Below are positions 18,159 to 22,126 of a DNA stretch of 64,000 bases, piece by piece. Made by a program: the position numbers and the translations under genes. Every line of letters begins with the position of its first letter. Position 1 is the first letter of the stretch. The notes under the pieces are model-generated. The model was not told the DNA's origin. It saw only the letters and a program-made list of their open reading frames with translations, and searched no databases. Origin of the DNA: Candidatus Saccharimonadota bacterium (lineage in GTDB: Bacteria > Patescibacteriota > Saccharimonadia > Saccharimonadales > Saccharimonadaceae); NCBI GenBank assembly GCA_030445245.1, contig JAUCSD010000001.1, positions 1,060,671-1,124,670 on the forward strand, given 5' to 3'.

Positions 18159-18247
18159 GCTCACTAGTATAGCAAATGTCCTCATCGGCGTGGGAGAAAC
18201 CATTTTTAACGGGCAAGAAGGGGTCCCAGCTCTGTTATACTAAGAAC

Positions 18248-20794
18248 ATGAAACGATTGGTAGTGATTGATGGAAAAAGTGTCTTTTACCGCGGCTACTA
18301 TGCGATGCCCGGCCTAAGTACACGTGATGGCACGCCAACCGGTGGCGTCTATGGTTTTGCAAGTCTAGCACTTGAAATTATGAAAAAGCTTGAGCCAGAT
18401 TACGTGGCTGTAGCCTGGGATAAAAAAGGGACGAGTATTCGCAAACGTCTGGAGATTTTACCGACGTATAAAGCTGGTCGAAAAAAGCCACCCGAGGACT
18501 TCTTTGCGCAGCTGCCAATGCTCTATGAACTTCTTGAGGCCTGTGGCTGGCCGCTCTATGAACTTGATGATTATGAGGCTGATGATATTATGGGTGGCTT
18601 TGCGGAGAAGGCTAGTGCTGAAAATATTGAAACCTGTCTCATTACCAGTGACCTTGATATGCTGCAGCTGGTTGGGCCATTAACGCATGTTTACGCACTC
18701 AAAAAAGGCTTTACTGATATTGAACAATTCTCCCCTGAATACTTTGAGCAGAAATATGGTATTCAAGTGAAACAATTTTTGGATCTTAAAGCACTTAAAG
18801 GTGATAGCAGCGATAATATTCCTGGCGTACCAGGTATTGGCGAAAAGACAGCTATCCAATTGCTTCAGGACTACGGAACACTCGACGCCATTTATGAGCA
18901 CTTGGATGATATAAAGCCTACCGTGGCGAAGAAACTCGAAGCCGGTAAGGAATCAGCCTACATGAGTCGGGAAGTGGGCAAGATTTGGTGTGATGCTCCA
19001 ATCGAGCTCGACCTAAAAGCGATGAATGCGCGCGATCTCGATGTTGCGAAGCTTGCGACGCTCCTCAAGAAACTGGAGTTTACATCACTACTCCGTCGTC
19101 TGCCTAAGCACATGCAAGAAACGGCGCAAGGTAGTCTATTTGATATTGCAAAAGAATCCTCGATTACGCCACTTAAAGAGGTTACCTGGCCAAAGACACT
19201 GTCACTTGATGCGGATGCCGAAGTTATGATGCATGTCCAAGATGACACGGTATGGCTATCGACCGATAAAAAAACCGTTGCCGTTGCGCCACTCGCAGAC
19301 ATTGATAGCAGCATTTGGCGAGCACTTGAAATGACAAATGTTGTTGCCTATGACGTGAAGAAAATGTATCACACGGCCCACGATCAGGGTGTAGAAGTTC
19401 GTTTTGACCAAGTGCATGATATTGCTCAGGCGGCGTTTTTACTCGATCCCCTGATGCGCGAGCGTTCGATTAGTGCCTTGGCTCGCGAGGAACTCGACAT
19501 GACGAATGCTGGACAGGTGATGGCGGCTTTATGGCAGATACATACTGAACAACTCAATGGTTTTGTTAAGGAACCTAAGATTGCTTTTGTCGCCCGTGAA
19601 CTCGATTTCCCGCTGACATACATGCTGTACCGCATGGAGAGCCGGGGGATTAAGATCGATAAGAAACTCTTTGCTTCAATGAGCAAAGAGTTGGGTGATG
19701 AACACAAAACACTTGAACAAGAAATGTTTACGATGGTTGGATATGAATTTAATATCGGCAGTCCGGCACAATTATCCGAGGTATTGTTTACAAAGTTGCA
19801 GTTACCAACCGCGGGTATTAAAAAGGGCAAAACAGGATATAGCACCGGCCAAAAAGAACTTGATAAGCTGCGTGGCCAGCATCCTATTATTGAGTTGATC
19901 GAGCGTACCCGGGAACTGGCAAAGCTCAAGAACACCTATGTCGATACGTTACCTGAGATGGCCGATGAGCACGATCGCATCCACACTGACTTTAGACAGG
20001 ACGTGGCGGCAACTGGTCGACTTTCCAGTAACAATCCTAACTTGCAGAACATTCCGGTACGTACCGATCTTGGTCGTAAAATTCGTGAAGCTTTTATTCC
20101 TGAGGGTGATAAAGTATTCGTCAGTGCCGACTACTCACAGTTTGAGTTGCGTCTAGCTGCGGTACTCGCAAATGATACGAAACTCATTAACGACTTTAAC
20201 GGTGACGCCGATATCCACACCAAAACAGCCGCTCAGGCCTACGGCATTCCGGTAGATCAGGTTACGAAAATGCAGCGTCGAGCTGCCAAGGTGATTAACT
20301 TCGGCGTGCTTTATGGCATGAGTCCTCATGGGTTGTCTGCGGCAACCGGTATGAGTTTTACAGAGGCGAAGATATTTATTGATCAGTACTTTGAACTGCG
20401 GGCTCCAATCCGGGCGTTTATCGATGCCACGCTTGCGAAGGCTGAGAATGAGGGTTACGTCGAAACGTATTTCGGACGACGACGTCCAACACCAGATGTG
20501 AGAAGCACTAACTTTATGGTGCGAGAGGGCGCCAAGCGTGCCGCGGCCAATATGCCAATCCAGGGAACTGAAGCTGATCTAATGAAAATGGCCATGCTTA
20601 AAGTTGATGAAAAAATCGGCGACTTAGGTGAACAAATTTTACAGGTACACGATAGCATCTTAGTGGAGTGTCCACCTGAAAATGCTGAAAAGGTAGCGGA
20701 GCTTCTTAAGACAACCATGGAGCAAATTTATCCCGCACTTGAGGTCCGTCTAAAAGTTGACGTTGGCATCGGTAAGAACTGGGGAGAATTGTAG
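18248..20794 (+). CDS. polA: DNA polymerase I
   Basis: The 848-residue protein has an N-terminal 5' nuclease domain (VIDGKSVFYRGYYA; DDYEADDI; GVPGIGEKTA). A central 3'-5' exonuclease-like domain lacks the DxE motif and looks inactive. The family A polymerase domain has motif A DYSQFELRLA (Asp628), motif B RRAAKVINFGVLYG and motif C QVHDS (Asp802). Motif C is usually HDE, so the Glu is Ser here. It fills gaps and removes RNA primers. TATACT (18236-18241) lies six bases before the ATG at 18248. A long G+C-rich hairpin follows the stop. Confidence 0.96.
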   Translation: MKRLVVIDGKSVFYRGYYAMPGLSTRDGTPTGGVYGFASLALEIMKKLEPDYVAVAWDKKGTSIRKRLEILPTYKAGRKKPPEDFFAQLPMLYELLEACGWPLYELDDYEADDIMGGFAEKASAENIETCLITSDLDMLQLVGPLTHVYALKKGFTDIEQFSPEYFEQKYGIQVKQFLDLKALKGDSSDNIPGVPGIGEKTAIQLLQDYGTLDAIYEHLDDIKPTVAKKLEAGKESAYMSREVGKIWCDAPIELDLKAMNARDLDVAKLATLLKKLEFTSLLRRLPKHMQETAQGSLFDIAKESSITPLKEVTWPKTLSLDADAEVMMHVQDDTVWLSTDKKTVAVAPLADIDSSIWRALEMTNVVAYDVKKMYHTAHDQGVEVRFDQVHDIAQAAFLLDPLMRERSISALAREELDMTNAGQVMAALWQIHTEQLNGFVKEPKIAFVARELDFPLTYMLYRMESRGIKIDKKLFASMSKELGDEHKTLEQEMFTMVGYEFNIGSPAQLSEVLFTKLQLPTAGIKKGKTGYSTGQKELDKLRGQHPIIELIERTRELAKLKNTYVDTLPEMADEHDRIHTDFRQDVAATGRLSSNNPNLQNIPVRTDLGRKIREAFIPEGDKVFVSADYSQFELRLAAVLANDTKLINDFNGDADIHTKTAAQAYGIPVDQVTKMQRRAAKVINFGVLYGMSPHGLSAATGMSFTEAKIFIDQYFELRAPIRAFIDATLAKAENEGYVETYFGRRRPTPDVRSTNFMVREGAKRAAANMPIQGTEADLMKMAMLKVDEKIGDLGEQILQVHDSILVECPPENAEKVAELLKTTMEQIYPALEVRLKVDVGIGKNWGEL

Positions 20795-20804
20795 TAAAGG
20801 GTTT

Positions 20805-20843
20805 CAGGTGGAGGAAATGGCGAGACGCCATTTCCTCCACCTG
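20805..20843. terminator. Perfect 18-bp hairpin
   Basis: CAGGTGGAGGAAATGGCG, loop AGA, and its exact complement lie between polA (+) and the DUF397 gene (-). No T-tract follows on the + side (TTAGG) or the minus side. It may end both transcripts. Confidence 0.7.
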
Positions 20844-20866
20844 TTAGGCGTCAGGGCGTCGGCGAC

Positions 20867-21076
20867 CTATAGGTCAAACTCACCGTCTTTGGCGCCTCCG
20901 ACGAATGCATCCCACACCGCTAAGGTGACGATCATGGGCGGAGTATCGGGGTTTTCGTTGTCACGTAGAGCAACGATTCCGGGGAGGTTGAGGGCGACCT
21001 CGATACAGTTATTGCCTGATGCGGTACTGCGGGAACTCTTTTCCCAGACCGCGGTCGAGAGATCGTATGTTCTCAT
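20867..21076 (-). CDS. DUF397-domain protein
   Basis: The 69-residue product matches the DUF397 family along its whole length. It has a WxKSSRS-type start (AVWEKSSRSTASGNNCIEVA), then LPGIVALRDNENPD, and ends VWDAFVGGAKDGEFDL. The family is known almost only from Streptomyces and related Actinobacteria, usually beside a helix-turn-helix regulator of the XRE/BldB-associated type. No such regulator is present here. GGAGG lies 11 bases before the ATG. The gene is G+C-rich with a strong flanking hairpin. Its presence points to transfer from an actinobacterium; its function is unknown. Confidence 0.88.
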   Translation of the reverse strand: MRTYDLSTAVWEKSSRSTASGNNCIEVALNLPGIVALRDNENPDTPPMIVTLAVWDAFVGGAKDGEFDL

Positions 21077-21196
21077 CTCTTACTGATCCTCCGTACTAGC
21101 GGGTTTAGGGGATACCCGTCTATTTCATAGTAGACCCGCGCGAAGAAGAAGGAAATATCACCCCAGTGTATGTATATGAATTATTTTGGGTTGTGC

Positions 21197-21260
21197 CCGT
21201 GGCCCGGGCCTTCGCATGGAGAATCACGGGCGGAGGCTCTTAGAAAGGAGCCTCCCATTT
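21197..21260. other. Two adjacent hairpins in G+C-rich stretch
   Basis: GCCCGTG/CACGGGC and then GGAGGCT/AGCCTCC form two neighbouring stems. They lie downstream of the DUF397 promoter side and ahead of the doubtful frame at 21270. Remnants of terminators are one reading. Confidence 0.35.
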
Positions 21261-21269
21261 GAACAGATC

Positions 21270-21575
21270 ATGGAGTGTCTGCGTCTGAATGAATTGCCTG
21301 CCCAGAAGTGTGTTCTGGTGTGGACCGAGAGGAACGAGCTTTCCGCCCTGCACCTTCATGAGCTTGAAGGGAAGGGCTTTGCTTGTATCCAGCCGCCGAC
21401 AGCGGATCTGGCCACGCAGAAGATGCCGGCAACCTGGGTAGGTGTGTACTGTTTAAGCAGGGCATTCATATGTTGTAGTATAATAAATACATTGACTTTT
21501 AACCATAAAAGTGATACTATAAACGTATGTATAGAGGTAATTCATCTCGGGTTGTTCCGATTTTACTGGTGTTGA
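21270..21575 (+). CDS. Doubtful G+C-rich frame, possible broken gene
   Basis: An open frame of about 100 codons starts at ATG 21270. Its first 60 residues (with VLVWTERNELSALHLHELEG) look coding and G+C-rich. The last 35 run through A+T-rich promoter sequence into the next gene and do not. AAGGAG is 19 bases before the ATG, too far to help. It may be the remains of an acquired gene that lost its end. I do not recognise it. Confidence 0.25.
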   Translation: MECLRLNELPAQKCVLVWTERNELSALHLHELEGKGFACIQPPTADLATQKMPATWVGVYCLSRAFICCSIINTLTFNHKSDTINVCIEVIHLGLFRFYWC

Positions 21576-22126
21576 TTGTTATTGCAATCGCAGTTGCCGC
21601 TCTTGTGTCTGCTGGACGGGCTATTTTCGGTGGTGACCAAACAGGCAAAACACAAGTTGATATTGGTCGTGACGCGCTACTTAACACGACACTTGATCAT
21701 AGCGTTCGCATGACCGTCCGTGGTTCAATCGTAGCTGATGAGAACTTCCGCTCGTACCAGGTTGTCGTTAATCCGACTAACCGCTCACTTACGACCTATT
21801 CAGGTTACCTTGATCAACCGCTTGGTGCCAAGCAGTATGGTAATAATGCCAAGGCGTACGAAGAATTTGTGTATGCGCTTGATAAAGCCAATATGATGAA
21901 AGGCGACGCATTCTCAGGTGATAAAGACGATACTCGTGGTCTGTGTGCTACGGGAGAAGTGTTTGAGTTTGAAGTGCTCAATGGCGGTAATGTTGTTAAA
22001 CGACTGTGGACCACGACGTGTAAAGGTTCAGCTGGCTCACTCAAAGCAAGTACTACTCAGTTAGAGACATTGTTTCACAATCAGATCCCTGATAGTCGAA
22101 CCATTCTTCGTACCATCGATTTATAA
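21527..22126 (+). CDS. Membrane-anchored hypothetical protein
   Basis: The 199-residue product has one N-terminal transmembrane segment (about residues 10-30) and an exported domain. A Cys in GLCATGE and one in TTCKGS could form a disulfide. I do not recognise the domain. The promoter is TTGACT (21492-21497), a 17-base spacer and TACTAT (21515-21520), six bases before the ATG, so the message is probably leaderless. The HAD gene follows 24 bases later under its own -10 box. Confidence 0.75.
   Translation: MYRGNSSRVVPILLVLIVIAIAVAALVSAGRAIFGGDQTGKTQVDIGRDALLNTTLDHSVRMTVRGSIVADENFRSYQVVVNPTNRSLTTYSGYLDQPLGAKQYGNNAKAYEEFVYALDKANMMKGDAFSGDKDDTRGLCATGEVFEFEVLNGGNVVKRLWTTTCKGSAGSLKASTTQLETLFHNQIPDSRTILRTIDL

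Follow-up and report, generated by a model that had tools for sequence, protein, structure and literature searches.

A solo DUF397 gene, almost certainly acquired from Actinobacteria and probably carried as a passenger, in a Saccharibacteria genome

We found that a Saccharibacterium carries, downstream of polA, an intact DUF397 gene whose acquisition from Actinobacteria is supported by its best matches, its DNA identity, its base composition, its absence from this site in relatives, and a phylogenetic tree. The gene lies in a stretch of 64,000 nucleotides (the window) from a 1.16-Mb single-contig genome (G000) and belongs to a known family, of which it is a new representative found in an unusual host. 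Transfer from an actinobacterium had been proposed in the first-pass annotation of this DNA, and our results support it. Taken as a whole, we moderately favor the reading that this is a captured passenger gene that came with its own terminator.

The product matches the DUF397 profile from end to end, as the first-pass annotation had stated: the Pfam search gave an E of 6.6e-17 and 61.9 bits over profile positions 1-55 of 55, where the curated cut-off is 24 bits. Among the family motifs, CIEVA is present, and RDN stands in place of RDS. DUF397 has been described as four conserved strands followed by a C-terminal helix (PMC7159879), and the predicted model of the window protein (pLDDT 81.4) shows three strands of at least three residues, one two-residue strand, and a C-terminal helix. 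No solved relative was found by sequence or by fold, and a fold search of PDB and BFVD returned nothing with an E of 0.001 or lower. Since the reading frame is intact and a plausible ribosome-binding site precedes it (GGAGG, 11 nt upstream of the ATG), its product can probably be made in the cell.

The DUF397 gene lies tail-to-tail with polA, between two native flanking genes (Table 1). The gap between polA and g199, a conserved Saccharibacteria gene, is ~730 bp in the window compared to ~57 bp (L112), 50 bp (L116), and 85 bp (L122) in relatives, while in other relatives with g199 the gap behind polA is filled by unrelated genes, none of which is DUF397. Because the gap in relatives is either short or free of DUF397, the ~730 bp in the window represent an addition. 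The composition of the insert is also atypical, with a GC of 55% and a GC3 of 63% in the DUF397 coding sequence compared to 47% for both measures in polA. The site downstream of polA looks variable across Saccharibacteria. As read from their translations, the genes in this gap differ among L109, L111, L113, L120, and L121 and include HAD-type, dUTPase-like, and NUDIX-like products. The accessory stretch of the window holds a further GC-rich ORF, which may not be a gene: it gave only weak matches, with no family and no credible relative, and the one weak match that was read, in G165, sits in an apparent transposase gene, so that chance is likely.

The gap between the ends of polA and the DUF397 gene contains a long-stem hairpin, which likely acts as a bidirectional terminator; bidirectional long-stem terminators have been measured at XRE-DUF397 units in S. 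clavuligerus (PMC8269248). We considered a repeat or mobile element and rejected it, as the genome has a single copy of the hairpin (a second match was the hairpin against itself) and a search around the insert gave no direct repeats. A search of Rfam returned nothing credible, and blastn of the upstream stretches of those islets that were tested revealed no remnant of a donor XRE gene.

Table 1. Features of the window and of other DUF397 loci. Plain coordinates refer to the window; others carry the handle of their genome or locus.
Feature	Position	Strand	Basis or remark
polA (DNA polymerase I), native flank	18176..20794	+	ORF list, relatives
Accessory stretch, polA to next gene	20800..21480	.	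comparison with relatives
Perfect 18-bp inverted repeat with 3-nt loop	20805..20843	.	tail-to-tail gap polA/DUF397
DUF397 (PF04149) gene, 69 aa, intact, stop codon included	20867..21076	-	ORF list, Pfam
GGAGG, likely ribosome-binding site	21088..21092	-	sequence inspection
GC-rich ORF, may not be a gene	21186..21575	+	
199-aa conserved Saccharibacteria protein (g199), N-terminal hydrophobic stretch, native flank	21527..22126	+	
Second solo DUF397 gene	G000:C1:208949-209107 (L001:1450-1686, L006)		GC-rich islet of ~330 bp with own hairpin
DUF397 clade, hydrolase downstream	L090:1462-2229		
DUF397 clade, hydrolase downstream	L091:797-1713		
DUF397 clade, hydrolase downstream	L092:1381-2431		
DUF397 clade, hydrolase downstream	L093:1393-2514		
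DUF397 clade, hydrolase downstream	L094:980-1719		
DUF397 clade, hydrolase downstream	L100:585-1285		
DUF397 clade, hydrolase downstream	L103:1459-2113		
DUF397 clade, hydrolase downstream	L105:765-1463		
DUF397 clade, hydrolase downstream	L107:744-1620		

When genome contigs were scanned with the window protein, all 80 of the 80 loci kept were actinobacterial by title, with Asanoa, Actinoplanes, Phytohabitans, and other Micromonosporaceae as the top matches at 57-62% identity. At the DNA level, the gene shares 75.5% identity with Actinoplanes subtropicus across 139 bp. Micromonosporaceae are our best guess for the donor family; judging by the 57-62% protein identity, none of the donor genes sampled gave rise to the window copy very recently. 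Nine actinobacterial genomes hold 5-30 DUF397 copies each, and at donor-type loci (L008, L012, L015, L017, and L022), the start of DUF397 is overlapped or abutted by the end of an HTH/XRE gene. Neither a phage nor a plasmid vector was accepted: only three phage records matched, at <42% identity, together with one viral contig (L088) at 55%, while actinobacterial plasmids matched at no more than 55%, none of them a close donor.

In a tree of 125 DUF397 domains over 71 columns, six Saccharibacteria rows took six separate placements among actinobacterial rows, apart from other Patescibacteria. L004 falls inside Actinoplanes (99/91) and L003 groups with L154 and L149 (100/91). The window copy nests among actinobacterial sequences, with no supported position of its own, and its near relatives by path shift with row sampling; the phylogeny that the first-pass annotation had suggested for naming an actinobacterial genus therefore does not name one. 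Since L004 shares 88% identity with Actinoplanes italicus but no more than 64% with any other Saccharibacteria copy, several captures have taken place, and more than one acquisition in Saccharibacteria is well supported, mainly through this copy. A tree without long rows had lower resolution, and for two pairs tested, including L003 with L004, pairing was not rejected.

A deep Saccharibacteria clade, which the first-pass annotation had named as evidence against transfer, was not seen among the six rows. Vertical descent of DUF397 within Saccharibacteria from an old lineage, with loss from most genomes, would gain from the shortness of the domain and from the AU test, which formally does not reject a single clade of the six rows on these 71 columns (p 0.085). 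However, forcing that clade costs 47 log-likelihood units, L004 is nested in Actinoplanes at 88% identity, those copies that were read occupy different loci, and only 2/198 genomes in the same family have a copy. We regard vertical descent as very unlikely.

Beyond what the first-pass annotation had covered, we found that G000 has a second copy and that DUF397 also occurs in other Saccharibacteria and in further classes of Patescibacteria. A six-frame search of G000 gave exactly two DUF397 copies. They are 58% identical across 62 residues, too far apart for the second to be a recent duplicate of the one in the window; the DNA identity of the second copy to Actinoplanes-type genes reaches at most 79% over 140 bp. 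Carriers are rare, with 4/393 genomes in the order (~1%) and 8/380 in the phylum sample. The six Saccharibacteria copies are those of the window and L001 (both G000), L003 (G004), L004 (G222), L005 (G245), and L089 (G507, same class), and the copies in the four other genomes are also solo. As read from translations, their neighbors differ: a pyrB-like gene at L001, the ribosomal protein genes L3/L4 at L003, a thioredoxin-reductase-like gene at L004, and a glycogen-synthase-like gene at L089. A hairpin lies within 130 nt behind all six copies, with stems of 13-18 compared to shuffled means of 9-11; it is long in five of the six, and at L004 the best of 40 shuffles beat the observed stem by the same measure. 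Stems of at least 14 were present at 45 of 79 actinobacterial DUF397 loci.

The first-pass annotation had also remarked that the gene stands alone, and this holds for the entire genome: no XRE/HTH or DUF5753 gene adjoins it, and DUF5753 has no match anywhere in the single contig. The window gene is thus not part of an XRE-DUF397 pair, for which an XRE-DUF5753 gene would be adjacent or in the same genome. Within the order sample, DUF5753 was found in 5/393 genomes compared to 4/393 for DUF397. Its five loci in Saccharibacteria are L155 (G223), L156 (G336), L157 (G296), L158 (G303), and L096 (G004); four are in genomes without a DUF397 match, and G004 has both genes on different contigs. At L096, the same ORF that carries DUF5753 has an N-terminal HTH-like stretch. 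That the two domains are found split and about equally often fits the uptake of short fragments and argues against special selection for DUF397.

Saccharibacteria are ultra-small parasites known to live on actinobacteria. Cultured members are naturally competent through ComEC (PMC10633639). We propose that an actinobacterial DUF397 (BldB-like) gene was captured together with a terminator-like hairpin of its own on the 3' side, and that the XRE-DUF5753 regulator gene found ahead of it in likely donors was left behind. The probable route would be a short actinobacterial DNA fragment taken up by natural transformation, followed by illegitimate integration, and islets of one gene plus a terminator-like hairpin fit such a route. 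The gene sits tail-to-tail downstream of polA and disrupts nothing there. With no DUF5753 partner in the cell, the gene would most likely be a near-neutral passenger, which is the simplest reading since the regulator is absent here. The two copies in G000 and the repeated captures could nevertheless reflect selection instead of chance. Our findings document repeated single-gene transfer from actinobacteria into parasites of that phylum.

A 2020 description restricted DUF397 to actinobacteria (PMC7159879), and the first-pass annotation likewise took the family to be almost confined to that phylum. This does not hold, because Patescibacteria other than Saccharibacteria own a DUF397 clade. We found sixteen DUF397 genes in these Patescibacteria; in the class of G634, 13 of 335 genomes carry the family. 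A single clade (97/88), apart from actinobacterial and Saccharibacteria rows, unites fourteen of the sixteen, and in a reduced tree all eleven retained rows again formed one clade (SH-aLRT 99). An alpha/beta-hydrolase-like gene lies directly downstream of DUF397 at 9 of the 15 testable loci (Table 1), L095 being set aside as its gene is cut by a contig end; at L101, such a gene lies upstream instead. Pfam backs the hydrolase assignment for 8/10 of these genes, mostly weakly, while L100 and L103 have no Pfam match and are similar to L090; a serine-elbow-like motif is present in 10/10. The chance of 9/15 is ~1e-16 given 0-4 Abhydrolase_6 matches per genome and independent loci, or 2e-12 at a 2% background, and relatedness of the loci raises the true figure. 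In several cases, DUF397 and the hydrolase gene are separated by a terminator-like hairpin with a T run, so separate transcription may follow. Judged by title, none of 25 papers naming DUF397 concerns Patescibacteria, and the hydrolase-linked clade is apparently undescribed so far. It suggests a DUF397 role independent of the usual regulator and is the most interesting by-product of our analysis.

This clade bears on the idea that the window DUF397 is active inside the parasite without DUF5753, through another partner, as may be the case in those Patescibacteria with a hydrolase neighbor. The recurrent hydrolase neighbor, in genomes with only 0-4 Abhydrolase_6 matches, is consistent with it, as is the finding that VMAP conflict systems contain DUF397 with no HTH gene (PMC7159879). 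However, neither G000 copy adjoins an alpha/beta hydrolase, and in the tree the window copy falls with the actinobacterial sequences, outside the hydrolase-linked clade, which makes such a partner unlikely here.

What is known of the family in actinobacteria bears on two further readings. BldB-family proteins are not DNA-binding; they hetero-oligomerize and alter the output of WhiJ-type regulators (PMC10294661). Fourteen XRE-DUF397 pairs of S. coelicolor showed no toxin-antitoxin behavior, while antibiotic production and development were altered (PMC10364602). The gene could be retained for an effect on the host, with its product delivered into the actinobacterial cell as a decoy subunit on WhiJ/Scr1-type XRE-DUF5753 regulators, shifting development or antibiotic production in the parasite's favor. 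In line with this, the partner regulators are present in actinobacteria and absent from G000, hetero-oligomerization changes WhiJ output (PMC10294661), DUF397 genes overexpressed alone alter antibiotic production (PMC10364602), and captures are recurrent. On the other hand, the sequence of the protein shows neither an obvious signal peptide nor another mark of export, only ~1% of the sampled order genomes have a copy, and the partner regulator was captured equally often, which a decoy would not predict; we therefore consider retention for such an effect quite unlikely. The broader proposal that Saccharibacteria repeatedly capture single DUF397 genes and keep them as host-directed regulatory mimics, replacing the BldB-like subunit of WhiJ/Scr1-type regulators, is a long shot; if true, the mimic would shift host development or antibiotic production. 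A leftover toxin of a type II toxin-antitoxin pair, as XRE-DUF397 was once predicted to be (PMC2701414), is extremely improbable, since 0/14 DUF397 proteins were toxic when overexpressed in S. coelicolor (PMC10364602) and the window gene persists without an antitoxin partner, none being adjacent. A role in anti-phage defense was likewise dropped, with no PADLOC match. The near-neutral passenger is the reading we prefer.

Among known systems, the window gene is closest in kind to the XRE-DUF5753/DUF397 pairs of Streptomyces and Micromonosporaceae (WhiJ-BldB paralogues, Scr1-Scr2). Both have the same domain from end to end, the WxKS, CxEVA, RD, and WDAFxxGxKDGEFD features, and a comparable long-stem hairpin behind the gene. 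Unlike these pairs, the window gene has no XRE-DUF5753 gene, either adjacent or genome-wide, its host is a Saccharibacterium, and its protein has RDN for RDS and VWDAF for the usual EWDAF. The unpaired BldB of Streptomyces (SCO5723, vnz26620) is also a DUF397-family protein without an adjacent whiJ paralogue. However, BldB is a poor DUF397 match with an N-terminal extension (PMC10294661), while the window protein is a standard DUF397, and BldB has WhiJ-type partners elsewhere in its own genome, whereas the genome of the window gene has no DUF5753. The hydrolase-linked DUF397 genes of other Patescibacteria share with the window gene the Pfam family, a small genome, and, in several cases, a hairpin behind the gene, but they form a separate clade with a hydrolase neighbor and bear no sign of recent actinobacterial origin.
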